A stretch of 64,000 nt of DNA, from positions 1 to 64,000 of the IMG/VR virus record IMGVR_UViG_3300027706_000002. One strand, 5' to 3'. The notes under the pieces were generated by a model that saw only the letters and a list, made by a program, of their open reading frames with translations, searched no databases and was not told where the DNA came from. The stretch is from a virus. Numbering within the stretch: the first letter of the stretch is position 1; each line of letters opens with the position of its first letter. This document shows, in pieces, positions 6,581 to 43,024 of the stretch. A program made the position numbers and the translations under genes.

Positions 6581-7520
6581 TGCCGAGATAGTCCGTGGTA
6601 CGTTGGATTTTGCCGAGACCTAATTGAACGAGATCGGTAACAACCTGGACGGGGCGATGGCGACGTTTAGGGCGAAAGATGGAGGCGTGGGTAGCAGAAG
6701 TCTGTTCGATACCTTCTTCAGCCATCGCGAGTTCGCCATAACCCTTTAGAGGTACGCCGCACTCGTGGCAGTGTTTGCGAACCTGGGAGGCGAAGGCGGA
6801 CATCCCCAATTTCCACCAAGGTAATCCGAAGAAGAGAAGAGTGGGATCGATCCCTGTATCGGGGTAGTCGGGGTCGTCTTGATGGAGAATACTTTGCGCT
6901 CCCGCGACCTCGCAGAACCAGGCTCGTAGTTGACCGCGAAAGACTCCGATCATTGCTGACCAGTGTTGGTTAATATCACAGCGGCTGATAAGTTCCCAGC
7001 GTTGTCCTTCGTCGGCGATAATGTCTCGCATCGCGAGATGAACGGGACTGTGTCGGGAATCTCGCTCTAAACCGACCGGATGGCACTCCGGCCAATCCCT
7101 TTTGAATTCGTCGTAGGCTGCGCGATCGAGATGAACGTTGAGGTTACTGACTGCAGGATTGAAAGTCTCCTGCATAATCTTTCCCTTGCCGACAGGGTGA
7201 TTACACCATAAACCCCGTTGCTCGTAAGGTATATGCCGACGGAGGATCTCACACAACGAGGAAAATTGCGGATGAAGAGCGGGATTACCGCCGAAGATCC
7301 CTACGACACCGAAGTAGTCTCGTAGAGATAGTACCGCTGCTTCGAAGTGTTCGGGAGAAATAAATTCGGTTCGTCCCGCGAGGTTGGAACCCTGTGTGCA
7401 GCCAAAACAGGCCTTATCGCAGGCTCTCGTGATATGGATCTGGATAACCCCTTCTCGGTATTTACCAGGTCTTCTCGTCCCCGGAGCGACCATCCTTTCG
7501 AGGGCCTCTCGTTCCGTCAT
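6567..7520 (-). CDS. Radical SAM enzyme
   Basis: A 317-residue protein with the 4Fe-4S motif CDKACFGC (Cx3Cx2C) near residue 34 and a GGNP motif (GIFGGNPALHPQF, near 75) in place of the GGEP SAM-binding motif. A second Cys group, CHECG near residue 248, and FCEVAG near 203 could hold an auxiliary cluster or zinc. It would generate a 5'-deoxyadenosyl radical to modify a sugar, peptide or nucleotide. The start has AAAGGAG at good spacing. Context with glycosyltransferases and methyltransferases suggests sugar modification, but the substrate cannot be read from sequence. Confidence 0.88.
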   Translation of the reverse strand: MTEREALERMVAPGTRRPGKYREGVIQIHITRACDKACFGCTQGSNLAGRTEFISPEHFEAAVLSLRDYFGVVGIFGGNPALHPQFSSLCEILRRHIPYEQRGLWCNHPVGKGKIMQETFNPAVSNLNVHLDRAAYDEFKRDWPECHPVGLERDSRHSPVHLAMRDIIADEGQRWELISRCDINQHWSAMIGVFRGQLRAWFCEVAGAQSILHQDDPDYPDTGIDPTLLFFGLPWWKLGMSAFASQVRKHCHECGVPLKGYGELAMAEEGIEQTSATHASIFRPKRRHRPVQVVTDLVQLGLGKIQRTTDYLGNAKK

Positions 7521-8596
7521 GATTGGCTCCTTTCGTTATAGCGGCAACGCAACGCTTCGATATCGCGGGCGAGAATCGTTCCGAGATGATGATAGTCGTA
7601 GTAGCTAGTTGCCCGAAGAGCGAAATGGCGTTGTCGTTGTGGATCGTAGCTGGCTTCGAGGCGACTCAGGAGATCGGCGATTTGCTCGGTGGGTGTCTCA
7701 GGATGTATTCGTACAAGGTTGTCGTCGATTTCCGGGAGGACTTCGTCCCCGGGAAGATCAGTGAGAACGATACAACCTGCGGCGGTAGCTTCGATAATCT
7801 TACGAAGGGCATAACCGAATCGGGAGGCAGTACAGATCGCTACACGATGTCGACTTAATTGTTCAAGATATTGTGGAGTGTGACAACCATTTTGATGGTA
7901 GCCGGGGTGGTGAAGAACAGTACAGTTCGGTAGCCGGTTTGCATCTCGGAAGAGGCGTTGGCGAAGCGGATAGGCATTCGATACCGCCCCGGAAAGAAAA
8001 CAACCGGCACGACCTTCGCTACGATAGGTGGGAACGTGTACAGGATCGAGACTGTGGTAGGTCCGAATGCAGTGCTCTTCACGGATATAGGGTGCCAAGT
8101 GTTTTACGATACGGGGGTGGTAGTAGATAATCCAGGCGTGACAACCGATTTCTTGAGCAGACTCGGCGTGGTAGTGGGGCCTTTGTTGCGAGTCTTTGAG
8201 GATTGTGAGCTTGAAGCGTTCTTTGTCTTGAGCGAGGCAGTCAATACGGTTGAAGCGGGCTCGACGATCGCGGAAGTCCCGTGGTTGCGCGTCCCACTCT
8301 CGTTTATCCTGGACGACGATAACTCCGGGGTTGAGGTGGCGGACGATTCGTCCTACGTCGGTCTCGTTGCGAGGTAGGCCGTAGCCCACGAGAAGATAGC
8401 CCGCGTGTTCGAGAGCGAGGGCTATTTGCCAACCTTCGTCGGTGGTATGCTTTTGCATCGAGGAAACGGCGAGCATCACCCTATGCCGATTCTCCTCGGG
8501 CGGAGGGGTGTAAGGCGGAGCTTCTAATCGACCGGGAGATAGTTGCTCTCGGGGACCAATTCCGGCGATGACTTCTGCGATAGAAATCGGACGCAC
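7517..8596 (-). CDS. Glycosyltransferase, GT-B like (CgeB/GT1 type)
   Basis: A 359-residue protein whose C-terminal half has the GT-B nucleotide-sugar binding pattern: ASRFGYALRKIIEATAAGC followed by VLTDLPGDEVLPEI near residue 285, as in CgeB-like spore-maturation and family 1 enzymes. The N-terminal half has Rossmann-like strands (LAVSSMQKH, LLVGYGLP, VIVVQDKRE). A GTG start at 8596 is chosen: GGGAGGT lies 6 nt upstream and the codon overlaps the upstream TAG by one base. It overlaps the radical SAM start by 4 nt. Confidence 0.78.
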   Translation of the reverse strand: MRPISIAEVIAGIGPREQLSPGRLEAPPYTPPPEENRHRVMLAVSSMQKHTTDEGWQIALALEHAGYLLVGYGLPRNETDVGRIVRHLNPGVIVVQDKREWDAQPRDFRDRRARFNRIDCLAQDKERFKLTILKDSQQRPHYHAESAQEIGCHAWIIYYHPRIVKHLAPYIREEHCIRTYHSLDPVHVPTYRSEGRAGCFLSGAVSNAYPLRQRLFRDANRLPNCTVLHHPGYHQNGCHTPQYLEQLSRHRVAICTASRFGYALRKIIEATAAGCIVLTDLPGDEVLPEIDDNLVRIHPETPTEQIADLLSRLEASYDPQRQRHFALRATSYYDYHHLGTILARDIEALRCRYNERSQS

Positions 8597-9399
8597 TAGA
8601 GCACCTCCCTTCCGCGATCGACGGTTAGATTGCGCGTGTAGGCTGCTTGGAGAATGTGAGGATCTTGCCCAGCTTCCAGGAGGAGTCGGATCGCCTGTTG
8701 AAGATCTTTGGGAAGGCAAGCTCCACCGAAACCATAACGTCCGTCCGGTCCGGGGACTCTCGTGTGGAAAGGACTGACCCGACCGTCGGTAAGAATCCCA
8801 GACAGAACTAGATTCCAGTCGAGTCCTTTCTTTTCGCAGAACGCTTGTATTTCGTTGAAAAAAGCTACCTTGGTGGCGAAGAAAGCGTTAAGAAAAAGTT
8901 TCACCGCCTCACTCTCATCGGAGGTCATCCAGAGTAAAGCGACTCCTGGAAAGCGTTGTTTGAGTAGGTGGGCCAAACGATAACCAGTTTCGTTTTCTTG
9001 AGGAAGGTCGTTACCTGGGAGACCGATAATATTTCGACTCGGAATCTGTGCGTCGATTTCTGCGCAACGAGCGGTTAGAAATTCGGGACAATGGACGACG
9101 TTGCGGAGACCGTGGATCTCGTAAAGTTTGCGGGTGAGTCCGACGGGGCAGCTTGATTTAATGACAAAGTGGTTTTGCCGTTCGTTGTCGGGGATGTCCC
9201 GGAAGAAACCTTCTAACTCTCCCTCGGGGATACAGATAAAAACGAGATGACTGAGTAAAACTTCCTCGATCTCGTGTGTACGTCGTTCCTCCATCTTATC
9301 GTAAATACGGATCTCTTGAACGTGTTCGATCCAAGCTCTCGCTGTAGCTCGGCCGACCACTCCTCCTCCAACGATTCCGAGACGGACTCGGTCTTTCAT
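8596..9399 (-). CDS. Short UDP-glucose/GDP-mannose dehydrogenase-like protein
   Basis: A 267-residue NAD-dependent enzyme of the UDP-glucose 6-dehydrogenase family, which oxidises a nucleotide sugar to a uronic acid. Visible: Rossmann motif GIVGGGVVGRATA (residues 8-20), SSCPVGLT near 82, PEFL near 105, the central-domain K167 in EAVKLFLNAF, and the catalytic Cys228 in GFGGACLPKD. Family members are normally about 390-440 residues; this one stops soon after the catalytic loop, so the C-terminal UDP-binding domain is missing. It may be a reduced form acting on another carrier, or rely on a partner. Strong AAGGAG site before the ATG. Confidence 0.85.
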   Translation of the reverse strand: MKDRVRLGIVGGGVVGRATARAWIEHVQEIRIYDKMEERRTHEIEEVLLSHLVFICIPEGELEGFFRDIPDNERQNHFVIKSSCPVGLTRKLYEIHGLRNVVHCPEFLTARCAEIDAQIPSRNIIGLPGNDLPQENETGYRLAHLLKQRFPGVALLWMTSDESEAVKLFLNAFFATKVAFFNEIQAFCEKKGLDWNLVLSGILTDGRVSPFHTRVPGPDGRYGFGGACLPKDLQQAIRLLLEAGQDPHILQAAYTRNLTVDRGREVL

Positions 9400-9626
9400 T
9401 CTTGCTCCTTCGACTCTGCTGGATCCTGTCCGAGAATACGTCGCAAGTATTCTCGGGCTCCTTGAACCTTACCTTGGACAACACGACGAGCCCAAAAATC
9501 AAGAGCGTTAAGTCGCTCGCGACGTCCCTTACAACCACATTCCTTCCCCAAGAGTTTCTGGACTCGCTCCTCCGTAACGCCTACCGTTTCCAAGGCTTTC
9601 TTGACTAAGTCTCCGAGGGGTTGCAT
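9396..9626 (-). CDS. Small CGC-motif phage protein
   Basis: A 76-residue protein with a helical N-terminus (LGDLVKKALETVGV) and the motif CGCKGRRERLN near residue 30. Proteins with a short Cys pair followed by RR/KR-x-x-LN next to glycan or tail genes are frequent in phages and have no assigned function. It overlaps both neighbours (4 nt and 22 nt), so it is translated within the sugar island. Its ribosome binding site is weak. Confidence 0.65.
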   Translation of the reverse strand: MQPLGDLVKKALETVGVTEERVQKLLGKECGCKGRRERLNALDFWARRVVQGKVQGAREYLRRILGQDPAESKEQE

Positions 9627-10327
9627 GTCTGTCCGGTTTCCTGTAAAAATCGGAGAGCGTCGTAACCTTCTCCGCGAAAATTGGGAGCTTGTGGATGCGG
9701 ACGATTGCCCATCGAGCTAGTTAAGCCTACGTGTTGGACGAGACTGGGCGAGTGCACATATTCCTTACCGCCTGCTAGGTTGAAAGCGGTGACGATACCG
9801 CCGTCAATACTTCTCCAACCTCGATCCGGATCGGCCGCACGGTCCCATAGATGATTCGAACCGAGCAGGGTCAAAACACCCGCTCGATCGAAAACAAGGG
9901 CTACCGCTCCTCGACCCCTTTGGTTCGATTCGTACCAACCGACACGACCTTGGGCTAGTTTCTCATTAGCCGGGAAGGTGTAAAGATTGAAATAACCTCC
10001 CTTGGGATAGGGAGTACGTTCGAGATACTCGCGAAGATTGCGATAGGTCACGAGATCGTCCTGGAAGATGGCATAACGTTCTGCTGTAGGCTGACGAAGA
10101 TAGATCTCGGCCAGAGCCAGGGTCCAGTTGGCAGCAGTTCGTATCTTCGGCCAGTGATTCGTTACTTCGAGCTCGTAACGATAGTCTTCTGTGACCGATC
10201 GCGAAGAACAATCGTCAACGAAGATCCAAGGCTTATCGAAGCCGGCTCTTGCCAGACTCGTAAGAGTTCTGGGAAAAAGGTCGTCCTTGCGAGAAGGTAC
10301 AGTAGTAATACCGTAAGACCATTGCAT
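9605..10327 (-). CDS. Glycosyltransferase, GT-A like
   Basis: A 240-residue protein beginning with the GT2-like strand YGITTVPSRKD, a long DDCS segment near residue 39 and an acidic metal-binding motif FQDDLV near residue 89. The C-terminal block PSLVQHVGLTSSMG is typical of phage and viral glycosyltransferases related to families 2 and 25. It is the first gene of the sugar island, overlapping the end of the tail gene upstream as TAATG. The acceptor could be tail protein or DNA; context next to tail genes favours virion protein. Confidence 0.78.
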   Translation of the reverse strand: MQWSYGITTVPSRKDDLFPRTLTSLARAGFDKPWIFVDDCSSRSVTEDYRYELEVTNHWPKIRTAANWTLALAEIYLRQPTAERYAIFQDDLVTYRNLREYLERTPYPKGGYFNLYTFPANEKLAQGRVGWYESNQRGRGAVALVFDRAGVLTLLGSNHLWDRAADPDRGWRSIDGGIVTAFNLAGGKEYVHSPSLVQHVGLTSSMGNRPHPQAPNFRGEGYDALRFLQETGQTCNPSET

Positions 10328-27561: not shown

Positions 27562-28827
27562 TTACGCGGTGGTCGCGTGGAGAATACCGCAGTTGCCGTA
27601 GTAGTCCGCCCGCAACTGAGGTACTTGGATACACATCACCTTGAAGTTCAATTGCATACCGCCCTTGGTTTCCCATTGGACGGTCGTAATATCCATGCCG
27701 TTCACAGCCCGAGCTACGTCCGGAGTCATCTGGACCATGAGCAGCGTAAACGGGGAAGTAGCCGTAGCCGTGAAACCTTCGCCGCCCGGACCCTTCGCCG
27801 GGTCGGGTTTAGAGGCAAACAGGAAGTCCAAACGGCGAACGTCCATGATGCCTTCGATCGATTTGAGACGTTCACGAAGCGTCTGTGTAGCTACGTTACC
27901 GCCGGTGAGAATGTAATCGTTGTCCATGTACTGATCCCAATCGTTGCTGTGGTACAGCATGAAGGGACCGTAGAACTTGTTGGCGTAAAGCTGATCGCGC
28001 ATGGCGAGAACGTTACGCAGCGTGGTAGCCGCCGTCCAACCGCCGGCAGTCGGGGCGGTCAAGGTCGTGTAGGTAAGTCGATTGGGAAAGTTGGTATACC
28101 CGAAGACCGTACTGGCCCGACCATAGCCACCGACCTGAGTCGAGTTGCCGCCGTAGGTAATGCCAGTGTTAGTACCGATCAGAGTTTTTTCGATCGTCTC
28201 TGCCACACGGCGAGCGGCTGCTTCGCCCATCGTCGTATCCAGAGGCGTACCTGTATTGCGAGACACTGCCAAACGGCGAGCCGAGAACCAAAAGTCCGTA
28301 TGCGTGATGGGCAAGGGCAGGCCCTGCAGCTGGAACTGCGGGGCGTCACTACGACCTTCCGCGAGACCGTCCATGTCCACGACAGCTTCGCCGGGATCCG
28401 ACATCGTCTCATGTTCCAAGATCATCTTCGACATGCCGTTAAAACCGCCGAAGCTATTTGCGGCGGCGAGATCCGCCCACGCACGGAGACGGAAGCGAGC
28501 GGCCCGTAAAACGACCGTGTCTAACTGGAGCCATTCTTCCTTTCGCAGCGAGGTCGCGTTGAAGACCGGACTGTTAATACCCCGTTCTTGAAGGACGCGA
28601 ATGGGCAGCTGCTGACGTAGGGGAACTTCCCGTTTCAGTTCTTTGTTGTAGACCATCTTGCGCGTATTCATAATCACGCAAGGTTGTCCTCGAGTGGGAC
28701 TGTTGGGATTGTCGTCGATAAACGGACGCAACAGCCCCGGATCGAAACGCACATCCATCAGTTGTTCCGCCAACGACCCGTGCGCTTGGCCGTTGAGGAT
28801 AAAATCGGTGTTTGCGAACTGGTACAT
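27562..28827 (-). CDS. Major capsid protein, HK97 fold
   Basis: 421 residues with HK97-fold capsid features: an extended N-terminus, a helix-rich middle (EEWLQLDTVVLRAARFRLRAW near 97), the block SRNTGTPLDTTMGEAAARRVAE near 190 that is shared with encapsulin-like and siphovirus capsids, a long loop region, and a C-terminal strand set (TVQWETKGGMQLNFKVM). There is no delta-domain-sized N-terminus; scaffolding is probably supplied by the 858-aa protease/scaffold upstream. It is followed by a terminator and preceded by a decoration-protein gene. Confidence 0.88.
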   Translation of the reverse strand: MYQFANTDFILNGQAHGSLAEQLMDVRFDPGLLRPFIDDNPNSPTRGQPCVIMNTRKMVYNKELKREVPLRQQLPIRVLQERGINSPVFNATSLRKEEWLQLDTVVLRAARFRLRAWADLAAANSFGGFNGMSKMILEHETMSDPGEAVVDMDGLAEGRSDAPQFQLQGLPLPITHTDFWFSARRLAVSRNTGTPLDTTMGEAAARRVAETIEKTLIGTNTGITYGGNSTQVGGYGRASTVFGYTNFPNRLTYTTLTAPTAGGWTAATTLRNVLAMRDQLYANKFYGPFMLYHSNDWDQYMDNDYILTGGNVATQTLRERLKSIEGIMDVRRLDFLFASKPDPAKGPGGEGFTATATSPFTLLMVQMTPDVARAVNGMDITTVQWETKGGMQLNFKVMCIQVPQLRADYYGNCGILHATTA

Positions 28828-28884
28828 TGGTGGAAATCTCCGTCTCTGTTATCCGGTGAGGTAGAAGTTTTGCGTTACAAGCGG

Positions 28885-29370
28885 TTAGCCGCGAGCACCT
28901 GTAAACATGACCCAGTTCAGGTCATCTTGTTTAAGATCGTCCTCCATGAGGATGAAGGGGCCGTCTGAAGAAGAACTGCTTTGTTGGGCTAGTTCTCCCG
29001 TACCCTTCGTCACCTTGAGGCGGGTGCCGACCGATAGGATTACTGAAGTACCCGTTCCCGGGTTATCGGCGAAACGCATATTCAGTTCGTCCCCGGGTAG
29101 AGGACAGTAGAGGAACCCTCGCGTTCCGCTGACGTAGGCGTCCTCGATCGTTTTGCCCTGAAGATGGTCCGGGAGCAAAACCGCGATCAGTCGAGGATCC
29201 CCGGTCGAGCTCGGATTGTAGACCTCCCAGGTATTGCGGCCGTTCACCGGAGCGGTGCCGGCCTGTAACTGCATAACCACTCCAGGCTTGGGCGTGCCGG
29301 AGATAATCCCCTCCAAAAAATTCCCTCGCGGGTTGTTCGTAAGCACAACTCCGCTACCGTGCTGGCTCAT
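28885..29370 (-). CDS. Capsid decoration / stabilising protein
   Basis: 161 residues, beta-rich, located between protease/scaffold and major capsid genes, as with lambda gpD-type or DUF2190-type proteins. N-terminal GNFLEGIISGTPKPGVVMQL and C-terminal beta strands fit a small trimeric cementing protein. CAGGAGA lies before the ATG. Identification is by order and size. Confidence 0.62.
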   Translation of the reverse strand: MSQHGSGVVLTNNPRGNFLEGIISGTPKPGVVMQLQAGTAPVNGRNTWEVYNPSSTGDPRLIAVLLPDHLQGKTIEDAYVSGTRGFLYCPLPGDELNMRFADNPGTGTSVILSVGTRLKVTKGTGELAQQSSSSSDGPFILMEDDLKQDDLNWVMFTGARG

Positions 29371-29510
29371 TGAGAGTCTCCTGTAAGGTCATTCTTTGTA
29401 CCTGGCTCCCGACACCGAGTCCCGTCCGACGTCCCCCTACAACGCCCTGGAGCCTCGATGCCGGGAACCAGAGTACAAAGGAATGACAAATCTTCTCTGT
29501 TCCGGGTGGA
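29371..29510 (-). promoter_or_regulatory. Long imperfect hairpin between protease and decoration genes
   Basis: Arms 29388-29410 and 29463-29487 pair over about 22 bp with three single-base interruptions, enclosing a GC-rich loop of about 52 nt. It sits in the untranslated spacer upstream of the decoration and capsid genes. There is no T-run, so it looks more like an RNA-processing or stabilising structure that could separate low-level protease mRNA from high-level capsid mRNA. No gene is visible in the spacer. Confidence 0.5.
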
Positions 29511-32087
29511 TTAGACCGCTTGTCGTTGTTCCTTAACCAATTCCTGCCAATTAATCCGGGGCGGCCACTCTTCGGTCGTCTCTTGGGAGACGTTGGACGT
29601 GGGAGCCGAGGGAACTCCTGGAGGAAGGTACAGGTGGGGACGGGGAGCCGAGCTTACGGAAGAGATCGAATCCATCAACGTATTGCGGGCCGGAGTCGGC
29701 ATCGCCGCAGCGAGCTTCCGCAGCTGGTTGAGATCCATCTTTTCGTAAACTTCCAAGAGGGTCTTCTTGGCGGTATCGTCCGCCGCGTTGGCCGTGATAT
29801 GGTCGAGGAGTGCAGCCCGTTCTCGACCCTTCATCTCTCGGGCATACTGAATATCCTCGCGGATATCCCGGGGCAACGAGTTAAGGTTCATACGGTTCGT
29901 ATTGTATTCCGACGGGATGCCTGCACCACCCGCCTGCCGTGCCTTGGTTTTCTTGGGAGGACCGTCGAAGGAGTGCAGATCCTCCGACTCCAGACCCTCC
30001 TCGTCCTCCTCTTCTCCCTCTTGGAAGTCGAGGTCACCCCCGAGATCCTTCGTCATCTTGGCGTTGAGAGAGATGAGAAGCCGATCGGACAAGCCGAGCA
30101 GCTTTTCCTTCTCCTCTTCGCAGGCGCAGCCGTTGGCCACCAGCTGATTGGCGATGGCCGTGCGCTGCTGAGTGGTCAGCGGCATCTTGAGATCTCCTGT
30201 ACTGTTAGTGACGGCAGCCATATGCAGCGAAGCAGCCTTCCGGTGCATATTGGCCGCGTTATCGTGCTCGTGCGCCCGATCATGGTAGCCGTCCTTGCGT
30301 AGACGCAAGGCTTCATCTTCGTGTGCGGCTGCTGCGGAGAGATGACTCTTAGCGGCTTTCTTGGAACTCTTACCTTTGGAGTGTCCTAGAGCTTCGACCG
30401 AGTGGCTCAACGCTCCGTCGTGGCCGGTTTGCATCGAGGCCATTCCTGCCTCGGTTGAGGCAGACCCGGCATCGTTATAGCTCATCATGTTGCGACTGCC
30501 TCCTCCCATGTAACAATTAATCGCTCCCGGATAACCGTCCGCGTCATTTTCCACTTCCGGCTCCGCTGTAGGGTTTGTTCCCGGCGGAATGCTCTTGGGC
30601 GGTTTGGGAGTGGGTGTTTTACTTTTCGGCTGTTTGGCGGCCTTGGCCGGCTTTACAGGTTTAGCTGGGGCAGCGTCGGCTTTCTTGGACCAACCTGTGT
30701 TATCAGACTTATCCCCAGCAATCTCGCCGCCTCGAGTTAGAATTGCGTTTTGGGCCCTTTTGTCGTCGCGTTTTTCATGGTTCGTAGCGACAGCCTCTCC
30801 ACGTTCGATCTTGTTCTTGTGGAGAAGAGCCTGCGCCCCGTGGTAGTGTACCTTGGAAAGGTGGTAATCGGCTTTATTCTTGTGATAGCCGGCTAGCTCA
30901 TAGTCGGGCGACCCCTTCGTGGAGCCTGGATTACTCGCCTCTTCGTAGGCCGCAAGATGGGCGTTGGCCGCGTCTTGGTGAACCTTGAGAGCCTCCTCGT
31001 GCCCTGTGGGATTTTCCAGAGCGATACCCGAGGAGTGTTCGGCGGCATCGGTCAGGGCCTTAGCGTGGTTGGAACGCTTGCCGAGAGACCAGTTACCTTT
31101 CCCCAAACCCTTCGCCGGAGCGGTCGAATCAATTTCCGAAGGCTTTTCAGCGTCTTTATTCGTACTAAGCCCCAAAAGCTCGGCGATACGGTTGAGAAGA
31201 GTTCGCTTGTTCTCGATGGTATCACCTTTATGCTGCGAGGTATTTTGCCGCCCACAGTCGATACACAGACCCGTCGTGGGGTTGACTCCTGTAGGACTAC
31301 CACAGTACTTACAGGTCTCTGGATACCCTTTACTGAGAGGTTGTTCCGCCGTTGGGTCACTATTGTGTGTATTATTCCCCACGGTGCCCCCCATCTTTTT
31401 GTAGATTTCTGTAACGACAGCGTAGTAACTGTCTCCGTCGTAGTCGCCTTTATCTGCAGCTTCTTTGGCCTTTTCCCAGATGTCCTCGTCCTCAACCCAA
31501 GACGGATTAACCGTGAGGTCCATCGGGTGTTTGTCATGATTGACCAGAACTCCGCAACCGTCCTTAATCGAGCAGGCTCCCACTTCGTCGGGAAGCACAG
31601 CTACGTGGTCTGGCCGATAATTCCGAGCGATATATTCGTAGGGACGTCCCTTGTGATCCGTGCCGGACGCGGGTTCATTGTCGGTATAAAGACCGGTGGA
31701 AAGCTCGAGAGGTTGTCCTTTAAGCAGAGAATTCAGGATACGAGAGTCGAGAGCTTGGAGTCGCTCGATATCGAACCAACCATCAGCCCGTAGCTTTCCG
31801 TTGGCAGAGGCATTCTTGATAAAGCCGATATATTGACGGGCTGCCACCCCGGGGTGTCTAGCAGAGACGGGACGACCGAGTTCATCGAAGGGATGCCGGA
31901 GAGTCAGCGGCATACCGTCCCACTTCTGGGGATCGTCTGCCACTTCCTCGGGAGGATAGTAGAGAGCTCCCTTGGATCCATTGAGCACGCCGGGGACAAT
32001 CAGCGATAGGGGGGCCACGAGATATTCGCGACCATCGCGGATTGCCCGGCGGACTCGACCTGCTACGTTAGCGAGTAGCCTTTCCAT
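29511..32087 (-). CDS. DUF2213-type capsid maturation protease fused to scaffold
   Basis: 858 residues. N-terminal 190 residues match the DUF2213 prohead-protease family (YLVAPLSLIVPGVLNG, WDGMPLTLRHP, LELSTGLYTD). Then follow a block PSWVEDEDIWEKAKEAAD near 200, a zinc ribbon CKYC...CIDC near 258-280, two His/Ala-rich helical repeat regions (about 340-430 and 550-630, with a recurring A-x3-H spacing), and a C-terminal acidic/helical part (residues 640-858) like a scaffold. Protease and scaffold in one chain is known in HK97-like phages. ATG 32087 has AAGGA upstream and replaces a TTG at 32108. Confidence 0.82.
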   Translation of the reverse strand: MERLLANVAGRVRRAIRDGREYLVAPLSLIVPGVLNGSKGALYYPPEEVADDPQKWDGMPLTLRHPFDELGRPVSARHPGVAARQYIGFIKNASANGKLRADGWFDIERLQALDSRILNSLLKGQPLELSTGLYTDNEPASGTDHKGRPYEYIARNYRPDHVAVLPDEVGACSIKDGCGVLVNHDKHPMDLTVNPSWVEDEDIWEKAKEAADKGDYDGDSYYAVVTEIYKKMGGTVGNNTHNSDPTAEQPLSKGYPETCKYCGSPTGVNPTTGLCIDCGRQNTSQHKGDTIENKRTLLNRIAELLGLSTNKDAEKPSEIDSTAPAKGLGKGNWSLGKRSNHAKALTDAAEHSSGIALENPTGHEEALKVHQDAANAHLAAYEEASNPGSTKGSPDYELAGYHKNKADYHLSKVHYHGAQALLHKNKIERGEAVATNHEKRDDKRAQNAILTRGGEIAGDKSDNTGWSKKADAAPAKPVKPAKAAKQPKSKTPTPKPPKSIPPGTNPTAEPEVENDADGYPGAINCYMGGGSRNMMSYNDAGSASTEAGMASMQTGHDGALSHSVEALGHSKGKSSKKAAKSHLSAAAAHEDEALRLRKDGYHDRAHEHDNAANMHRKAASLHMAAVTNSTGDLKMPLTTQQRTAIANQLVANGCACEEEKEKLLGLSDRLLISLNAKMTKDLGGDLDFQEGEEEDEEGLESEDLHSFDGPPKKTKARQAGGAGIPSEYNTNRMNLNSLPRDIREDIQYAREMKGRERAALLDHITANAADDTAKKTLLEVYEKMDLNQLRKLAAAMPTPARNTLMDSISSVSSAPRPHLYLPPGVPSAPTSNVSQETTEEWPPRINWQELVKEQRQAV

Positions 32088-32105
32088 CAGCTGTCCTTGG
32101 CTGTA

Positions 32106-32128
32106 CAACCCCGGTTCCCTCGGGGTTG
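32106..32128 (-). promoter_or_regulatory. Hairpin in the protease/scaffold leader
   Basis: Perfect 8-bp GC-rich stem (arms 32106-32113 and 32121-32128, 7-nt loop) 19 nt upstream of the protease start, in the spacer after the winged-helix gene. No T-run follows, so it may modulate translation or mRNA decay rather than terminate. Confidence 0.4.
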
Positions 32129-32174: not shown

Positions 32175-32444
32175 CTAATAGGGCTTAGGCTTTTCTTGTC
32201 CATTACTGTAGGTATCGAGACAGTAATAGGTACAACCTTCCATGATTTTACAGGAGATCGTAAAACCATGATGACGGAGTTTCGCACGTAAGCGGGAGAT
32301 GTGAAATTGGATCGAGGTTAACGCGGCGAGTTCATCATCCAGACAAGCGTGGAGTTCCTGGCGAGTGTGGAAGTGGCGATCCCGTAACACCGTAAACATA
32401 CGGCGTTGTATCGGTGTCAGGGAAACGGGTAAATCATCAAGCAT
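32175..32444 (-). CDS. Winged-helix DNA-binding protein, 89 aa
   Basis: A small protein resembling the OmpR/PhoB-type C-terminal winged helix: LTPIQRRMFTVLRDRHFHTRQEL (first helices), an acidic linker, ALTSIQFHISRLRAKLRHHG (recognition helix) and a beta wing ending in YYCLDTY. No receiver or sensor domain is present. It lies immediately after a sigma-factor gene and before the protease/scaffold gene, suggesting control of late genes. Confidence 0.78.
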   Translation of the reverse strand: MLDDLPVSLTPIQRRMFTVLRDRHFHTRQELHACLDDELAALTSIQFHISRLRAKLRHHGFTISCKIMEGCTYYCLDTYSNGQEKPKPY

Positions 32445-32453
32445 ACGTCTACC

Positions 32454-33047
32454 TTAACTCGCCCAGCGATAGAGCTTCCTGCGGAGATGGGCTAGTGCTT
32501 TTTGTTCTTGGAGTTTAATCGCTTGCCGAGACAGACCTATCTCGCGGCCGATTTCGGCCCCGTTTCGATACTTGTAATAGATCTCTTCCAAGAGAGCTCT
32601 TTGCTTCTTGGGAAGTTCTTTAAAGGCTTTCTGTAGAGCCTCTAGAAGCTCGAAGTCCGGATCTTCCTTCGGTCGAGGAGCCTGAACCATCTCCTCCAAA
32701 CAAAGATCCTCATTTTCTAGACAGATCTGGTTCGCCAATTCGTTACGACTCTTACGCAGTAACCCATGATTTTTATTGACATAATTAAGCAAGTGGTTCA
32801 AGATACACTTTACCGCAAAGGTACTAAAAGCCACTGGCTTACCTGTTTTCTTACTCGGACGGTGAGGGTCGTACTGGTCCACGGCCCGAACGAGAGCGAA
32901 AGTACCCTCTGCTAAGAGGTCGTCCCAACTACCGATCGTACGAAGCTTCGGATCGCGATCTTTTGCGGGGAAAGCTCGCCCCGCAATCCAATAAACAAGC
33001 GGTAGATTTTCCGTAATCATCCGATCACGTTCCGGACCCTGTTTCAT
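32454..33047 (-). CDS. RNA polymerase sigma factor (sigma-70 family)
   Basis: 197 residues. Region 2 is visible as LPLVYWIAGRAF, DLLAEGTFALVRAVDQYDP and FSTFAVKCILNHLLNYV; region 4 is LPKKQRALLEEIYYKYRNGAEIGREIGLSRQAIKL near 145-180, with the helix-turn-helix at the end. Region 1 is absent and region 3 is minimal, as in short alternative sigma factors. It should redirect host RNA polymerase to phage promoters. Overlaps the next gene as ATGA. Confidence 0.9.
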   Translation of the reverse strand: MKQGPERDRMITENLPLVYWIAGRAFPAKDRDPKLRTIGSWDDLLAEGTFALVRAVDQYDPHRPSKKTGKPVAFSTFAVKCILNHLLNYVNKNHGLLRKSRNELANQICLENEDLCLEEMVQAPRPKEDPDFELLEALQKAFKELPKKQRALLEEIYYKYRNGAEIGREIGLSRQAIKLQEQKALAHLRRKLYRWAS

Positions 33048-33424
33048 CGGCGATTCCTCGGTGGTGCGTCGTTGTCTTCGTCCGCCTTTTCTTCCATCTC
33101 GCGAAGAGATTCCTGTCCGGTTTCTCCCTCCGTCCGCAGTAAATCCTCGTCTTCCCCCGGAGGGAAAACCCCGATCGTCTTACCTCGCCCCGAACGTTTT
33201 CGTAGGACTCGTTCGGTCGCTTCTTCTCCTTCTTCTAGCTCTGGGACGTGCATCCCCTCATTATATACTGATTCGGTAACTGTTTCAGGATCAACCTGAA
33301 CTCCATTTATCCAATATTGCGTGTAGTCGAGAGTCGGCACGTAACGGGTAACCAATTCCCCCCGTACTGTTTCAGGAGGTAATTGACGATCGTCATCTCG
33401 GAAAGTCTTCGCGGCTACTTCCAT
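33044..33424 (-). CDS. Hypothetical acidic protein, 126 aa
   Basis: A protein with a short N-terminal beta segment (TRYVPTLDYTQYWINGVQV) and a long charged C-terminal half rich in Glu, Asp and Arg. It is coupled to the sigma-factor gene by a 4-nt overlap and to the large head protein by a 10-nt overlap. A role as an accessory to either is possible; no family recognised. Confidence 0.62.
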   Translation of the reverse strand: MEVAAKTFRDDDRQLPPETVRGELVTRYVPTLDYTQYWINGVQVDPETVTESVYNEGMHVPELEEGEEATERVLRKRSGRGKTIGVFPPGEDEDLLRTEGETGQESLREMEEKADEDNDAPPRNRR

Positions 33425-36288
33425 TGGATATCCCGAAAAGGAGTATCGCTACGCGATTGATTACAGGCGAGACAAGCGGGTACCAAGTTATCATGGCGGT
33501 ACTTTCCGCCTTCTCGAGCCGTATAGATCTTATCGCGGGTCACCGTATTCTCGTTTAATTCTACCCCACAGTAGACACAGCCGCACGTGGTTCCGTCCCC
33601 GAATTCCTTAAGAAGACGCAGACGACTCGCTCGGCGATCCTTGGAGCTTCCCCGAATATTCGCTTCGTAACGGTCGGCTCCGAGACGATCAATCTTTTCG
33701 TGGGCTGCGGCGACCTCTTCGGCCGTAGGTCGCAGGGCGGTAGCCGCCTTCGCTTGAGCTTGGAGGCGGAGTTTTTGTAGGGCCTTTTTACCTACTGCTC
33801 GGATCTTACTTCCACTACCCCCACTGCTCCCCCCTTCTTTACCGCAGCTAGGATCGACTCCTCCTCCTACACCCGTCGCGCAAAAGACGTTCAAGGTCGA
33901 TTGGGGCCGGCTTTTCGAGACGGACAAATCGATATCCGCTTCGTGAAGGGCTGCGTCGATCGAGGATTTACTGCGTTTTTGTCCTTCGGTATCCTCGCCG
34001 ACGTTAGCCGGAATCCAGGCACATCGGCAGTTTGGATGCACCGGGATTATCCCACGAGCTTCCTCGACCTTCAAGACAACTCCTTCCAACGCCTCACACT
34101 CAGGACAAACGGTATCGTCTCCGGCGGAAGAAAATTCGACAGCGGCCCCAACCTCCTCCACACCCATCTGCTCCAGAGCTTCCAGTTGCCCCTCCGCGTG
34201 GGCTCGAATAATCTCGGTTCTCGCGATCAATTCGGCCCGTTGTCGGCTGAAGCCGATATCGTCCTCGAGGTCGTCCGCAATCTGTCGAGGACTCTTTCCC
34301 TGGACGAGCCCGTCGGCTAGGGTCCGACTCATCCGCTGCGAAAGATCCGCCGTGACGTTCTGCATCTCATCGAAAGAACGGGCGGCGAGCAGCTGGACCT
34401 TCTCGACCGCGACGGGGCGGCCGAAGGCACTCCGCAGGAATTCCTGTTTTGTCCCTTGATAAAAGTCCAGCTGCTGCGGCTCCGTGGCCGCAACGCGCAC
34501 CGCCGCCCGCGTATCGTCGAAAGCTCGTCCCGCACCCTTGCGGAATCCGGATTCGATAAATCTTCTCCACAATTCCTCAACTTCCGGTGAGGTAAGATCC
34601 TTACCGAACTGTTGTTTGAGCCAGGCTTGGAACTGTTTGAGCTTTTGTGGATCGGAGGAGAATTTCCAACGAGTATTGGAAAGAATTACCGAGTGGGCTG
34701 GATGTCCGGCTCCCGGAGAAAAGTGCGACGTCCCCTCGATCCAGACCTCTCCATGGAGATCGGCGAGGAGTTCCTGAACTGCTTGCGCGATGAATCCTTC
34801 TTCGCTTCCTTGCGAATGGAAAACCAGATTACCTGTCAACGGACTGATAAGACGATGCATCTCGGCGAGAGCGATCACCGGAGCAGCGGTAACTAAGGAA
34901 GCTCCTGGAAGAGGGACAGGAACTCCGGCTAAAGCCGCACCGATAATCGCCTTGGCGTAGGTAGCTCCGTAACGCTTTTCGAGCTTGGCGTACTTCTCCT
35001 TAACCTTGTCTTTGATTTGCTGGTAGATCTTGTCGGGAAGACCTTTGACGAATTTGCCTATTTCCTGCAGCTTAGTTCCTGCTCCTCCTTGTCCCGGAGA
35101 ACAGGTAGGATCAACGCCCCCACCCGGCCCGGTTGGGCAGAAAGCGTTGATCGAAGGAAAACCGGGGATGTTTCTGCCGTCGGAATCGCTCGGTAGACCT
35201 CCTTCGTTACGTCGTGTTGGGCCTACGTTTTTCGCGGGACTCTCCCAGGCTCGTTCCGTCCCAACTGAATCCCACAAGGCGCAACAATTTCGGTCGTTCA
35301 CCGCGAAACGGACCTTGGGATGAGTACAAAAGCCTGTTTGAACGAATCGACAATTCCCACAATTCGTACCCGAGACTCCGGGCGGTAAAGTAACAAAGTC
35401 TACAGCCTTCGCCCGATCCTTATCTTCGGGGATAACTCCTCCGAGCACATCCAAGGGTGCGTTACCTTCCTGGGAGAAAGTAGCCGAAGGCGGACCTACG
35501 GCGATACCGTAGCGGATAAACTCATTGCCATAGACATCCTTATCATGCCACAACCGCAAAAAGTCTTCCGCGTCGATCATCACTCGTCCCGGTTTCTGGA
35601 CGGAACCCGAGTCGGCGATAACATTATCCTCCGAAGAATCCTGGCAAAATACATACCCCATTCCCACTCCGATCACGACCAGATAATGGCCGTAATCGAA
35701 GCGAGCTTCGGGAGGAACCCAGGGTCCATAGTCTTGTACTGGAACGATCACCGGCATTCCAGCTTCGATATAACTCCGCAACTCCCCGAGACCTAACTCT
35801 TGCTGCGCGATAACCGTGCAACCTAAGCTCTGGAAATACCCGACAATCGCTTGCGGATGGGTCGATTGTTCGACATCGGTTCCCAGAGCCTCCTTCCACT
35901 GTGGTAGCGTCTCTGGACCTACTCCCAGGTATCTCCCCACGACCATACTAGCCGCTGCGCCACAACTGTAGTGATCTCGTTGTCGCACGTCGGGGACTTC
36001 GAGAATTTTACAAGATTTCTCGGTGTGTACAGGTTGCGGCTCTTCCTGCGGAATAGGGTACTTCCGCTCATTGAGAGCGAAAGGATCGTGGGAAGATTCC
36101 TTTAGTCCTAAAGCATCCTCCTCAACGATGAGGTGGACGACAGCTTTTTGTAGAAGGAGAAAACGTTTCCGTAATTGGGAGACAAAGGTACGCCGCAACG
36201 TGGCGGTGCGCGAAGGATCGAGCCGCAGCGGATTACGCTTTCTTGCAGCGGTAACCAAGACACCCTTACGATAGCGACGCTTTTTCAT
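33415..36288 (-). CDS. Head morphogenesis fusion: C39 protease, MuF, HNH domains
   Basis: 957 residues. Residues 90-270 form a C39-like cysteine protease: Cys109 in DHYSCGAAASM, His201 in DYGHYLVVIGV, and QDSS at 216-219. A Cys-rich patch follows (CGNC, CTHP, CC; 310-336). NAFCPTGPGGGVDPTC (381-396) begins a helical region. Residues 640-760 match the Mu gpF/SPP1 gp7 minor head domain (IARTEIIRAHAEG, CPEC, HPNCRC). NVFCATGVGGGVDPSC (801-816) repeats the earlier motif, and an HNH-like nuclease closes the chain (CGCVYC 902-907, His932, CLAC). Probably packaged at the portal vertex. ATG 36288 overlaps the upstream stop. Confidence 0.87.
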   Translation of the reverse strand: MKKRRYRKGVLVTAARKRNPLRLDPSRTATLRRTFVSQLRKRFLLLQKAVVHLIVEEDALGLKESSHDPFALNERKYPIPQEEPQPVHTEKSCKILEVPDVRQRDHYSCGAAASMVVGRYLGVGPETLPQWKEALGTDVEQSTHPQAIVGYFQSLGCTVIAQQELGLGELRSYIEAGMPVIVPVQDYGPWVPPEARFDYGHYLVVIGVGMGYVFCQDSSEDNVIADSGSVQKPGRVMIDAEDFLRLWHDKDVYGNEFIRYGIAVGPPSATFSQEGNAPLDVLGGVIPEDKDRAKAVDFVTLPPGVSGTNCGNCRFVQTGFCTHPKVRFAVNDRNCCALWDSVGTERAWESPAKNVGPTRRNEGGLPSDSDGRNIPGFPSINAFCPTGPGGGVDPTCSPGQGGAGTKLQEIGKFVKGLPDKIYQQIKDKVKEKYAKLEKRYGATYAKAIIGAALAGVPVPLPGASLVTAAPVIALAEMHRLISPLTGNLVFHSQGSEEGFIAQAVQELLADLHGEVWIEGTSHFSPGAGHPAHSVILSNTRWKFSSDPQKLKQFQAWLKQQFGKDLTSPEVEELWRRFIESGFRKGAGRAFDDTRAAVRVAATEPQQLDFYQGTKQEFLRSAFGRPVAVEKVQLLAARSFDEMQNVTADLSQRMSRTLADGLVQGKSPRQIADDLEDDIGFSRQRAELIARTEIIRAHAEGQLEALEQMGVEEVGAAVEFSSAGDDTVCPECEALEGVVLKVEEARGIIPVHPNCRCAWIPANVGEDTEGQKRSKSSIDAALHEADIDLSVSKSRPQSTLNVFCATGVGGGVDPSCGKEGGSSGGSGSKIRAVGKKALQKLRLQAQAKAATALRPTAEEVAAAHEKIDRLGADRYEANIRGSSKDRRASRLRLLKEFGDGTTCGCVYCGVELNENTVTRDKIYTAREGGKYRHDNLVPACLACNQSRSDTPFRDIQWK

Positions 36289-36470: not shown

Positions 36471-36839
36471 CTAGTATCCTCCCGTCCGTATCCAGGCGAC
36501 GATTGCGCTGATTGTATCTCGCCAACGAATCGAACGTACCTTGGCCGTGGCTTCCGCTGCTTCCTCTTCGGGGTTGTAAAGACGTTGCTCGCGAGCTTGC
36601 TTTTTGCGGAGACGCTCGGCTGCAGCCTTTCGATCCGCTAACCAGACCTTATCCCCTAACCACTTAATACCGCCGATAAGCAATTGGGAGATAGCCATGT
36701 GTTCGAAGGGATAGCAATATGCCATCATCACACGAATATCCATGGCGGCCGTCCCTTCCCCGGGAGTAGGCCCCTGGAACCGAGTGGGTTGGGCAAGAGA
36801 AACACAGGCTTGTCGCTTATGCTGTGTGTCAACGGCCAT
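36471..36839 (-). CDS. Hypothetical protein, 122 aa
   Basis: N-terminal Pro/Gly-rich part, a middle segment with hydrophobic ISQLLIGGIKWLG near 50, then a charged helix (DRKAAAERLRKKQAREQRL). AAGGA lies before the ATG. It is coupled to the upstream sigma gene by an 11-nt overlap. No family recognised; an amphipathic or membrane-associated role is possible. Confidence 0.58.
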   Translation of the reverse strand: MAVDTQHKRQACVSLAQPTRFQGPTPGEGTAAMDIRVMMAYCYPFEHMAISQLLIGGIKWLGDKVWLADRKAAAERLRKKQAREQRLYNPEEEAAEATAKVRSIRWRDTISAIVAWIRTGGY

Positions 36840-37428
36840 GAGAGTCTTTATCCTTTAAGGCCCGAAGCTTCCGCAGACCTTTCCACATCTTATTCCAGAT
36901 TCTTTGCTCTTTACAACCTAACTCCTGGGCGATATCTCTACAGCGACGTCCCCGGATCCAGTGTTCGTAGAGTAACCAAGCCGTCTCTCGATCAGGTAAT
37001 TGTTCGAGAAGCGTCGCGATCTCTTCTTTTACCTGATAAACCTTAAAAGGATCTTCCGGCTGCTCGAGTTCGTTGTTGAGTTTCTCCCAGGAAACCCGCG
37101 AGGAAGCCTCTCGATAGCTCGTTCGACTGCAGCGTATCAGGCCGCTGTGTTGTCGTATCCAATCGAAGATAGCTCCTTGCGCTCGGAGACCCAGGTAGGT
37201 TTTCGGTTGGCTTCGGGCCGGATTATAGCGTGGAATTCCGTCCAAGATTCCCAGTACAGCCACATGGACCAGGTCTTCCAACTCACAGTCCATCCGCTTT
37301 CGACTGCGTCGAACCTTGTGGGCGAGAAGACGAGCGAGAGGGAGATAATACTCACACAACCTACGGCGAGATTCGGCTGTGGGTTGTCGGAAATATTCCT
37401 CCCATAGTCGCTTTTCTTCCTCTGTCAT
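36829..37428 (-). CDS. Sigma factor, FliA/WhiG-like
   Basis: 199 residues. Region 2 appears as LCEYYLPLARLLAHKVRRS, DLVHVAVLGILDGIPRYNPAR and YLGLRAQGAIFDWIRQHSG, the last being characteristic of FliA/WhiG-type sigma-28 factors. Region 4 is LPDRETAWLLYEHWIRGRRCRDIAQELG then QRIWNKMWKGLRKL. Start ATG 37428 has AGGAGG. It is a second, different sigma factor 4 kb from the first. It probably controls a late promoter class. Confidence 0.88.
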   Translation of the reverse strand: MTEEEKRLWEEYFRQPTAESRRRLCEYYLPLARLLAHKVRRSRKRMDCELEDLVHVAVLGILDGIPRYNPARSQPKTYLGLRAQGAIFDWIRQHSGLIRCSRTSYREASSRVSWEKLNNELEQPEDPFKVYQVKEEIATLLEQLPDRETAWLLYEHWIRGRRCRDIAQELGCKEQRIWNKMWKGLRKLRALKDKDSHGR

Positions 37429-37438
37429 CGTCCTCCTC

Positions 37439-38194
37439 TTACTGGAACTTTCCTCGGGTGAAGAGAGTTCCATCGTCGCTCACCGAAGCAGCGGCCACTA
37501 CCGTCGCCCCGTTATCCGCGTAGACCGTCTGAACGGCTGCCGTTTGCGTGATCTTATTGCGAGCAAGCATACTAAGCCATACAATCTTGTCTCGTAAGGT
37601 ATCGTTCGCGGTCGGTGGAGCCGCTAGTTCACCGTTCGTATCGACCACGAGAGCGTTGTACGCTTGTAGCATCCGTGCGCCGGCTTGCGGAAGTACATAA
37701 GGACCGGGCAGGTTGGTGCTCCAGACCGCGTCTGCGATATCCGTCGGCGTTAGGCTACACAAGGTATAGCCGACAGTGCCGATCGCGTAGTTGACGCAAT
37801 CCAGGGTGGTATTGAGGATCTCGTCGACGATCGCCTGGGTAGCTCCGAGATCCACTTCGATCGCCACCGGAGCCATGTTGGATGCCCCGGAGAAGCTGAA
37901 GGCTACGCTCTTCGCTCCAGAGGCTAAAGCTGCGTTCGGCGGACAAAACTGATACCAACCCGCCATAAACGAATCGCTGATAACCTTGAAGCCTCCTGAA
38001 GTGTAGGTGCCCAAGGTCATATTGTTTAGCGTTACCTGCGTCGGGGTCGTATCGGTGTCCCGATGGTAATAACAGATAAGCCCTGGACTCGTGTTAGAGA
38101 GACCTGTGAGACCTGAACCGTCGGTAACGGAACTATTCTGGATGAATAGGTGCCAGATCTCGTTCAGCGATCCCGGTCTGCGTATCAGCTTCAC
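37439..38194 (-). CDS. Hypothetical virion protein, 251 aa
   Basis: Beta-rich N-terminal 130 residues (VTLNNMTLGTYTSGGFKVI ... AVAFSFSGASNM-like) and a helical C-terminal part with DIADAVWSTNLPGPYV near 150 and ARMLQAYNALVV, a short segment common in phage baseplate or capsid-surface proteins. GTG 38194 has GGAG at 8 nt. It overlaps the next gene by 62 nt. Probably structural. Confidence 0.62.
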   Translation of the reverse strand: MKLIRRPGSLNEIWHLFIQNSSVTDGSGLTGLSNTSPGLICYYHRDTDTTPTQVTLNNMTLGTYTSGGFKVISDSFMAGWYQFCPPNAALASGAKSVAFSFSGASNMAPVAIEVDLGATQAIVDEILNTTLDCVNYAIGTVGYTLCSLTPTDIADAVWSTNLPGPYVLPQAGARMLQAYNALVVDTNGELAAPPTANDTLRDKIVWLSMLARNKITQTAAVQTVYADNGATVVAAASVSDDGTLFTRGKFQ

Positions 38195-40966: not shown

Positions 40967-43024
40967 CTACCCTCGTAAGCTCCGTAACAGAGCTCCCCAG
41001 AATTGGTAATTACGAACCACCTTGGGACGCGGTGGGTCTACAACTTCTTCGGCCCCAGCCGGCACCTCACCGTCCTCCGGCTTCCGTTGTGCGTCAACCG
41101 TTGCTACGTGGGGTGGACGATAGGTTTCTCGGGTTTGCTTCAGCTTCTTGGAATAGCGTTTCGCTTCTCCACGACCTTGGCTCGTCGCTTCGGCTTCTTC
41201 AGCTCCCCCTCGGGTATCGCGAGCGTAGGAAAGATTGGCGGCTGGGGTCGGCTTTTCGAGTTCCTTTTCCCTCGAAGTCTCACTCGCGTGCTCGGCCTTC
41301 GAAGACGGATTACCTTGGGCTGATCCGAGAACGGGTGGAGGGGGTTTCGGCTTACTAAAACCCGGTGGAGGAGCCGGCTCGAACCCATGCTTATCGGCTA
41401 GAGCTTCCGCCTCTTCTTGTTTATCCTGTTGAGCTTCCTCAGCGGTTTCCAAAACAGCTTCTGCCTCTTCCTCGTCCCAACCGAGAATGCGAGTCAGGTA
41501 ATCTCGGGGAGGAACAACTCCTTCGACTCCGCCGGCCACATAGGCCGCGATGGCTTGGGTCGTCTGTAGAGCAATGGCCGCTTTGTCCTTCTTCGTCGTC
41601 GAGTCGAGATCCGGCCATTCAATCGAGTACCCGGAAGGTTCCGGCAAGACTCTCAGAAGAATCAATCGGTCGATAAAGGGAGCGATAATCCTGGGAGTAA
41701 TGTGGAACTTCTGCCTCGCTCGTAGACGGTCGTTCCAGGCCGCGTCGTCCTGGGAAGAAGCGAGTTCGCCGCGTTCACTCCCCATAAAGACTCGCAGCGG
41801 TACGCCCAGCTTAATACAGATCGCTTCCAGTTGCACACGGATCTGCGGACTCGGATCTACCACCTGGGGAGCAAGGGATTTCGCGGTCATCCCCAACAAG
41901 CTAATCCAACGTTGTAGTCCGCTGTGATAATCCTCCATCATCTGGCGCAATCCGCCGATGTCGAGGATCGCGTCCCCACCCATCTCGGGATGCGTCTCGA
42001 TGGATAACCCCGGAAAGGCCCCCCGCCAATACATCTCTGCAGATCCTCCATAGAGCTTACGGAGATCGAGGATCGTGTTGAGAACGGCCCGCATCCGAGG
42101 AGCCCCGAAGATCTCGGAGGACTGGAGATTATCGGCGATATGGATAACCCGGCTCCAGTGGACGCGGACCGTCGCGAGAGGAAGGCCGATCCCAGTGTGG
42201 GGTTGCCTGGGATCGTTGAGGGTAACGCGGTACATGATAGGCATACCGAAGCGAGGGCTATACATACTCGCTTCGTACTGTACCACTTGCACGAGATGTT
42301 CGTCGAAGACCCGCAGAAACAGCAGCCTGCGCTGCTGGCTGTCCTTCCGCTGCGGTTGCATCGGCGTGAATTGAACTCCGAAATACTGCGCGTCGGTTCC
42401 CATCGTCGAGGCTAACGGTTGCTCGAGAGCCTTGGGTAGTTGTCCGCCGTAGATATCCTTCGAGGTCAGATCGCTCACCCCGGTCACGTCGATCGGTGCC
42501 CCATCCGGCGGTGCGCCGTCTACAGGTTCCTCGAGCAGTTTTCCGTCGTCCAATCCCAACAGCAGAATTCCGTAGGTGCCGATTCCTGACATAATATCGG
42601 CTCGAAGCAGGTAACTCCACACGAGGGAGCCTTCTTCGTCCTGTAACCAGGACTCGCCGTTAATCATCAGGTTAGAACCCAAAGCGTCCCAGGCTTCCTC
42701 GAACTCCGTCGCGTTTTCGGCAGACTCGTCTTCGTACACCGTTGGACTCATCTGCCAACACTCTTTCGGATAGACCTCCACGACCCGTTCGGCGATCGGG
42801 TTACGATCGTAGAGACTGCGATAGAGTTCAGCGTTAAGAGCGTCGGGCCAACCGCACTCGTTCTCGATATCTTTATGTTGAGAATTGAACTGCTTAAAGA
42901 ATTCCTGGCGGCAGGTCCACCAGTTATTAACCAGCTGCTCCAGACGAGCGAAGCGTTGTTCCTCGTTGAGAGTGGGAACGCTGTTTCCTGCCGGTTTTGT
43001 CGTCTTACGTGACGTGGACGCCAT
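40967..43024 (-). CDS. Portal protein
   Basis: 685 residues. N-terminal half shows portal-like features of the DUF1073 type: SLYDRNPIAERVVEVYPKECW near 68, ADIMSGIGTYGILLLGLDDG near 142, SRVIHIADNLQSSEIFG near 290 and PLRVFMGSERGELASSQDD near 405. The C-terminal 170 residues are acidic then Pro/Lys-rich and probably disordered or head-inward. It follows the terminase genes and precedes head genes. GAAGGAG lies before the ATG. Confidence 0.87.
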   Translation of the reverse strand: MASTSRKTTKPAGNSVPTLNEEQRFARLEQLVNNWWTCRQEFFKQFNSQHKDIENECGWPDALNAELYRSLYDRNPIAERVVEVYPKECWQMSPTVYEDESAENATEFEEAWDALGSNLMINGESWLQDEEGSLVWSYLLRADIMSGIGTYGILLLGLDDGKLLEEPVDGAPPDGAPIDVTGVSDLTSKDIYGGQLPKALEQPLASTMGTDAQYFGVQFTPMQPQRKDSQQRRLLFLRVFDEHLVQVVQYEASMYSPRFGMPIMYRVTLNDPRQPHTGIGLPLATVRVHWSRVIHIADNLQSSEIFGAPRMRAVLNTILDLRKLYGGSAEMYWRGAFPGLSIETHPEMGGDAILDIGGLRQMMEDYHSGLQRWISLLGMTAKSLAPQVVDPSPQIRVQLEAICIKLGVPLRVFMGSERGELASSQDDAAWNDRLRARQKFHITPRIIAPFIDRLILLRVLPEPSGYSIEWPDLDSTTKKDKAAIALQTTQAIAAYVAGGVEGVVPPRDYLTRILGWDEEEAEAVLETAEEAQQDKQEEAEALADKHGFEPAPPPGFSKPKPPPPVLGSAQGNPSSKAEHASETSREKELEKPTPAANLSYARDTRGGAEEAEATSQGRGEAKRYSKKLKQTRETYRPPHVATVDAQRKPEDGEVPAGAEEVVDPPRPKVVRNYQFWGALLRSLRG

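Follow-up and report, generated by a model that had tools for sequence, protein, structure and literature searches.

Organization of the locus

The sequence analyzed, hereafter called the window, is a stretch of 64,000 nucleotides from a 66.4 kb viral record (IMGVR_UViG_3300027706_000002). Its head module contains a gene for a MuF-family minor head protein to which several other modules are fused (Table 1). The ATG of this gene overlaps the stop codon of a 60-aa upstream ORF as ATGA and is favoured for this reason over a TTG at 36315. According to Pfam and PHROGs, the gene lies between the portal gene (40967-43024) and the DUF2213 and major capsid protein genes (27562-32108), which include an MCP-like DUF6260 gene (27562-28827). 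The same phage encodes a DNA polymerase A, a primase-type zinc finger, a UvrD-like helicase and a thymidylate synthase-like gene; no integrase was found among the ten large window ORFs searched. Two standalone sigma-70-like genes flank the MuF gene in the head module, one downstream (32454-33047) and one upstream (36829-37473), and no homologues of them were detectable in related loci. A small wHTH-like ORF (89 aa, 32175-32444) has homologues in about 50 related loci, situated between the MuF and DUF2213 genes in the loci checked.

An earlier note on this DNA had described a single 957-residue chain with C39-like, MuF and HNH-like regions, and the ORF, Pfam and PHROGs bear this out. The present analysis, which relies on sequences and structural models throughout, adds two copies of a junction motif, a Cys-rich stretch, a transferable hydrophobic helical module and an overlapping downstream gene. 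The full-length AF2 model is of low confidence outside the N-terminal helix, the C39 module, part of the helical module and the MuF core.

Table 1. Features of the MuF gene and its downstream neighbour (window coordinates)
Feature	Residues	Position	Strand	Basis or remarks
MuF-family minor head protein with fused modules	957 aa	33415..36288	minus	Stop codon included; ORF, Pfam, PHROGs
Conserved N-terminal helix	about 10-62	36103..36261	minus	Nearly all MuF-family members
C39/papain-like peptidase module	91-270	35479..36018	minus	Pfam, tetrad, fold; port 1, between N-terminal helix and MuF core
Cys-rich stretch	about 307-345	35254..35370	minus	C310-x2-C313 ... CC; sequence; disordered in AF2
Junction motif, copy 1, with Gly-rich linker	384-396, preceded by N381-AF	35077..35148	minus
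Hydrophobic helical module	403-490	34819..35082	minus	AF2 helices 403-454
MuF core	530-800	33889..34701	minus	Pfam Phage_Mu_F at 654-758
Junction motif, copy 2, with Gly/Ser linker	803-815, preceded by N800-VF	33808..33891	minus	C-terminal port, after SRPxSxLN core end
HNH-like module	832-957	33418..33795	minus	Pfam, PHROG; CxxC pairs C904/C907 and C939/C942; D919-K920
Overlapping downstream gene	126 aa	33044..33424	minus	Homologues only directly behind five HNH-bearing MuF genes

A MuF carrier with two ports

The MuF core is recognized by Phage_Mu_F (PF04233; 4.5e-16, 60 bits against a cut-off of 29.6), by TIGR01641 SPP1_gp7 (63.3 against a cut-off of 39.65) and by PHROG 758, head morphogenesis, which covers residues 536-777 (4e-31). 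No PDB chain matches it by sequence, and the 'minor capsid protein' of JBD30 proved to be a decoration protein rather than a MuF protein.

No relatives were found directly when the full-length protein was used as a query against the viral contigs; they were obtained through the junction motif pattern and an alignment of the MuF core. A profile of the core, applied behind a pattern prefilter that can miss divergent members, found 85 related stretches in the viral contigs, of which 80 loci were kept, and no relative in 85,000 genomes. The family so defined comprises 68 non-redundant ORFs of up to 2296 aa, found only in uncultivated viral contigs of IMG/VR, which are in part redundant and fragmentary. 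Within the reach of these filters, which divergent members can escape, no member came from a cultivated phage.

Minimal members of the family, of about 330 aa, consist of the N-terminal helix and the core. The helix, placed by AF2 at residues 29-56 with a pLDDT of about 80-96, directly precedes either the core or an insert in nearly all members. Modules are thus accommodated at two fixed places. Counted over the complete non-redundant relatives, port 1 (between helix and core) holds an insert of at most 68 aa in 37 and of 172-1251 aa in 20, and the C-terminal extension behind the core (port 2) ranges from 0 to 1631 aa. The cargo recognized by Pfam in the relatives includes ART-PolyVal, ADP-ribosyltransferase exoenzyme, sigma-70 regions 2 and 4, topoisomerase IB, NUDIX, inorganic pyrophosphatase, histidine phosphatase, PI3/4-kinase-like and 2H phosphoesterase domains. 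The view of this gene product as a MuF head protein bearing enzymatic modules is therefore supported by Pfam, PHROGs and the relatives, and the label 'polymorphic', which had also been proposed, is right in a strong sense: relatives exchange modules at fixed ports.

Several relatives, designated here by locus number, show further peculiarities. In L067 (4650-6851) and L127 (4449-7700), sigma-70 regions 2 and 4 stand behind the MuF core with junction motifs at the borders, which suggests a virion-delivered sigma factor. Topoisomerase IB occurs in the head region of L115 (3696-5705) and L132 (10104-11783), either as a MuF fusion or as a separate protein with two junction motifs. The MuF protein of L044 is divided over two ORFs (6354-7877 and 8144-10117), and both begin with a leader that is short and basic, followed by a junction motif. 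Inteins interrupt the MuF core in L017, L075, L093, L101, L117 and L129, apparently at two sites near Cys/His residues. Finally, (N)PFVSEAQRRxxYA or a similar sequence recurs near the N-termini of several head proteins in L052, L063, L075, L074, L083 and L044.

Modules in the first port

Pfam Peptidase_C39_2 matches residues 96-218 of the window protein with a score just above the cut-off (E 4e-5, 24.7 bits against 24). The tetrad Q103, C109, H201, D217 is invariant across eight related modules (alignment A2); Cys109 and His201, already singled out in the earlier note, are part of it. In the PDB, a sequence profile of the module matches the pseudomurein endoisopeptidase PeiR, the top hit (1.6e-6), and the C39 domains of PCAT and ComA. 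The domain was also modelled alone (pLDDT 77.5) and compared with known structures using VIA-align. The best agreement was obtained with the double-glycine protease 6mpz (Z 18.2, rmsd 1.9 over 135 residues), ahead of ComA (3k8u, Z 17.0), PeiR (8z4h, Z 16.8) and the papain-like toxins 9l5u (Z 13.8) and 8ssm (Z 13.3). As modelled, the module appears closest in fold to double-glycine proteases. Conservation of the tetrad together with the predicted fold suggests that the active site is probably functional. The C39 module occupies the first port in all eight MuF members that have it.

The Cys-rich stretch that follows possibly binds metal; no relatives of it were found among the related loci. The hydrophobic helical module, on the other hand, recurs in L016, L011 and L048, each time behind a copy of the junction motif, and in L004.

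The HNH-like module and its downstream gene

At the C-terminus, PHROG 960 (HNH) covers residues 832-954 (1.7e-17). The Pfam matches fall just below their cut-offs, both for HNH_5 at 904-945 (E 6.6e-6, 26.4 bits against 27.5) and for HNH (21.2 against 21.4), and two relatives pass both. The HNH-like end announced in the earlier note is thus present, with the two CxxC pairs that frame the fold in CxxC-type HNH domains. Its reading as a canonical nuclease is not supported, since the general base is missing: in an alignment with Cas9-type HNH domains, their D-H corresponds to D919-K920, and Lys replaces the catalytic His in all five HNH-bearing members of the family. Arg stands at this position in four standalone phage relatives that carry an HNH endonuclease annotation, and in L060 and L054 the Asp and both CxxC pairs are lost as well. 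His932, named in the earlier note as a residue to mutate, does exist, but the five family members have H, N, H, P and S at its position; it is neither conserved nor the catalytic His. On sequence grounds, naming the module a nuclease would be premature.

The HNH-like module is in the second port in five of five carriers, and a profile of the small overlapping gene finds matches behind all five of these MuF genes and nowhere else among the fetched loci. The small gene comes in two subtypes (window, L044 and L015 versus L060 and L054), linked by position and by weak similarity: a profile built from three sequences alone reaches L060 with an E value of no better than 1.4. The small gene is a candidate partner or immunity gene for the HNH-like module.

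Exchange of cassettes between related phages

On a tree of the MuF core, in which many forks are weakly supported so that the counts are approximate, the distribution of the C39 module takes six changes for eight carriers, and those of the HNH-like and helical modules five changes for five carriers each. The sister phages L093 and L053, about 80% identical in DNA, offer a direct view of an exchange. In the main blocks of the alignment, their head regions are 75-89% identical. The MuF protein of L093 ends with '...APEGIL'; that of L053 reads '...RPESIL-N' and continues with a junction motif, behind which comes the HNH-like module. The small overlapping downstream gene is likewise present in L053; its profile finds no match in L093. 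The two phages therefore differ by an exact C-terminal cassette made of the HNH-like module and the small gene. Such a clean exchange between close phages indicates that the carrier is a plug-in platform.

A junction motif at module borders

The two copies of the junction motif in the window protein, N-A-F-CPTGPGGGVDPTC (C384-C396) and N-V-F-CATGVGGGVDPSC (C803-C815), conform to the 13-residue consensus C[PA]TGxGGG[VI]D[PN][ST]C. A degenerate DNA pattern for the motif found 49 stretches in the viral contigs and none in the contigs of 85,000 genomes, a filter that can miss divergent members; a looser pattern found at least 119 stretches. Over all loci, at least 154 non-redundant viral ORFs bear at least 231 copies, and 19 of these ORFs have the present MuF core. 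Invariance of the Cys, Gly and Asp residues is partly by construction, because the searches fixed these positions; those that some searches left open (V/I as well as the N/K/R and F ahead of the motif) are still restricted. The third positions of the motif codons vary freely, which points to selection at the protein level. A role as a DNA-level recombination site was rejected: seven of the ten codons for shared residues differ between the two window copies.

Motif copies keep clear of Pfam domains: of 39 copies in 16 MuF proteins, 9.4 would be expected to fall inside one and none does (P 1.6e-5). All copies in a given record, up to 13, are on one strand, and a reversed control pattern gave none. 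Copies also cluster within records, with, for example, 13 of them within 11.5 kb of a 98 kb record. Wherever the context is readable, the carriers belong to the head module: C-terminal parts of portals, MuF and DUF2213 proteins, S78 prohead proteases and a capsid/protease fusion. Standalone carriers contain ART, RelA/SpoT, pentapeptide, topoisomerase IB, Ntox46 or HELAH zincin-like sequences. The phages concerned use different portal families (PHROG 146 and 12). In L187 (2076-3197) and L156 (4014-5051), near-identical 34-aa leaders and a junction motif are followed by differing C-terminal domains, both ART-like by eye, a polymorphic-effector layout outside MuF.

Both window copies have a pLDDT below 50 in the full-length model, where the alignment is shallow, as would be expected for a flexible linker. 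None of the listed Pfam, PHROG or NCBIfam matches covers the motif, and it is absent from PDB chains. Searching cultivated phages by tblastn with short peptides gave no hit, a test weakened by low-complexity masking, and the strings of this and other junction motifs that were tried occur in no open paper, itself a weak test of novelty. Relatives have analogous repeats at their module borders, namely N[YW]xPDQPRDxxGRFxSGGG, FxDCPRDxxGHCLPSG, NxREAxLKAWxTRGR and NPEGCNQYTGPxC, which suggests a class of border elements rather than a single sequence.

Of 29 records with the motif or a family member, six gave a C39 match; among those devoid of it are records of 60-112 kb holding 1-13 motif copies. 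The motif is therefore not, as a general rule, an obligatory C39 target. I take it to be an element of head-lumen proteins that would serve at junctions or in packaging. It may be a packaging tag, a processing site, a site for redox chemistry or metal, or a hinge with which linked domains could pass through the portal.

Discussion

I propose that the window encodes a polyvalent MuF head protein that delivers effector modules by means of interchangeable cassettes, a reading that I consider likely. The N-terminal helix and the MuF core would place the protein inside the head at the portal, as in SPP1, whose portal carries gp7 into the procapsid interior, where this protein supports the start of infection (PMC6316719). 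Port 1 would bring a C39-type cysteine peptidase together with the Cys-rich stretch and the hydrophobic helical module, and port 2 an HNH-like module of DNA-binding or nuclease-like character, the cassettes being set apart by Gly-rich linkers headed by the junction motif. By analogy with SPP1 gp7 and the polyvalent proteins, the protein would be packaged and probably ejected with the DNA at infection, and its modules would then act on the host.

Since the nearest folds of the C39 module are those of the PCAT and ComA double-glycine proteases, at least as modelled, an attractive alternative is a self-processing polyprotein, in which C39, acting in the prohead or following ejection, would cut each motif at its GGG (after G391 and G810) and so free the modules. 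Both GGG triplets lie within linkers predicted to be flexible, and the motif is found in five of eight C39-bearing MuF proteins versus 11 of 60 others, an association that is however confounded by protein size and sampling. Double-glycine leaders have hydrophobic residues at positions -4 and -7, which the junction motif lacks. Moreover, the motif persists in records where no C39 was detected, so that C39 is not what maintains it. Self-processing is possible, but I would not expect it.

Cutting could instead be the task of the capsid maturation protease, polyvalent head proteins being split at the motif inside the prohead before ejection. Carriers such as portal tails, MuF, the S78 prohead proteases and the capsid/protease fusion are proteins expected in the prohead lumen. 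Yet the usual prohead cleavage sites need less than two invariant Cys and 13 conserved residues, and the major capsid protein of the window is without the motif, which makes this explanation unlikely.

Another alternative takes the HNH-like module and the overlapping ORF for a mobile or homing insertion rather than cargo. The clean presence or absence between L093 and L053, the scatter of the module on the core tree and the inteins inside MuF of relatives would all fit. Against this, the module is an in-frame C-terminal fusion headed by junction motifs, its catalytic His is lost in all five carriers, and ART, sigma-70 and other enzymes occupy the same port; a mobile insertion is accordingly improbable. 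Equally doubtful is a role of the C39 module as a cell-wall peptidase during entry, for in spite of its sequence match and close fold to PeiR it sits in an internal head protein, neither a tail nor a lysis gene, and the matches to double-glycine proteases and papain-like toxins are just as relevant.

Delivery of effector modules by a polyvalent head protein thus remains the preferred reading, and it can be extended, tentatively, beyond the MuF family. The junction motif might be a general cargo tag of phage heads, or a tag and processing site combined, used in unrelated lineages, in which case the enzymes behind it would be ejected virion cargo. Portal tails, MuF proteins, prohead proteases and standalone effectors would then all be carriers, and virion-delivered sigma-70 factors would be among the cargo. 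Which effector proteins phages presumably inject with their DNA is usually guessed from gene position; a short searchable motif that recurs between domains of head-module proteins in unrelated phages would allow candidates to be listed directly, among them ADP-ribosyltransferases, a RelA/SpoT-like enzyme, topoisomerase IB and sigma factors, and would help to test how cargo gets into the head. If the motif works as a portable tag, chosen enzymes could be loaded into phage heads.

Comparison with known systems

The C39 module shares its fold (Z 17-18) and its Q-C-H-D active site with the PCAT and ComA double-glycine proteases, but is located outside any ABC transporter and is only about 20% identical to them. 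With SPP1 gp7 and Mu gpF, the window protein has in common the MuF domain (TIGR01641) and the position of its gene in the portal/head module; SPP1 gp7, however, is a short carrier without such modules.

A further parallel is with the polyvalent proteins of phages and conjugative elements (Iyer et al. 2017, PMC5512222). The window protein likewise unites at least two disparate biochemical domains on one chain in a phage head context. That paper describes disparate enzyme domains, fusion to MuF or portal proteins, location in the head region, ART and 2H cargo and proposed injection with the DNA, and MuF-enzyme fusions are regarded there as injected effectors. Unlike the cargo described here, C39 and sigma factors do not figure in its main text, and the passages found there contain neither junction motifs nor an internal port.

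MuF toxins are reported to be polymorphic toxins of temperate phages, found mainly in Firmicutes (Jamet et al. 2017, PMC5576092). The present family has no relative in the 85,000 genomes searched behind the pattern prefilter. Both have a MuF carrier, a variable C-terminal extension and an adjacent candidate partner gene; in the family described here, cassettes are also inserted between the N-terminal helix and the core.
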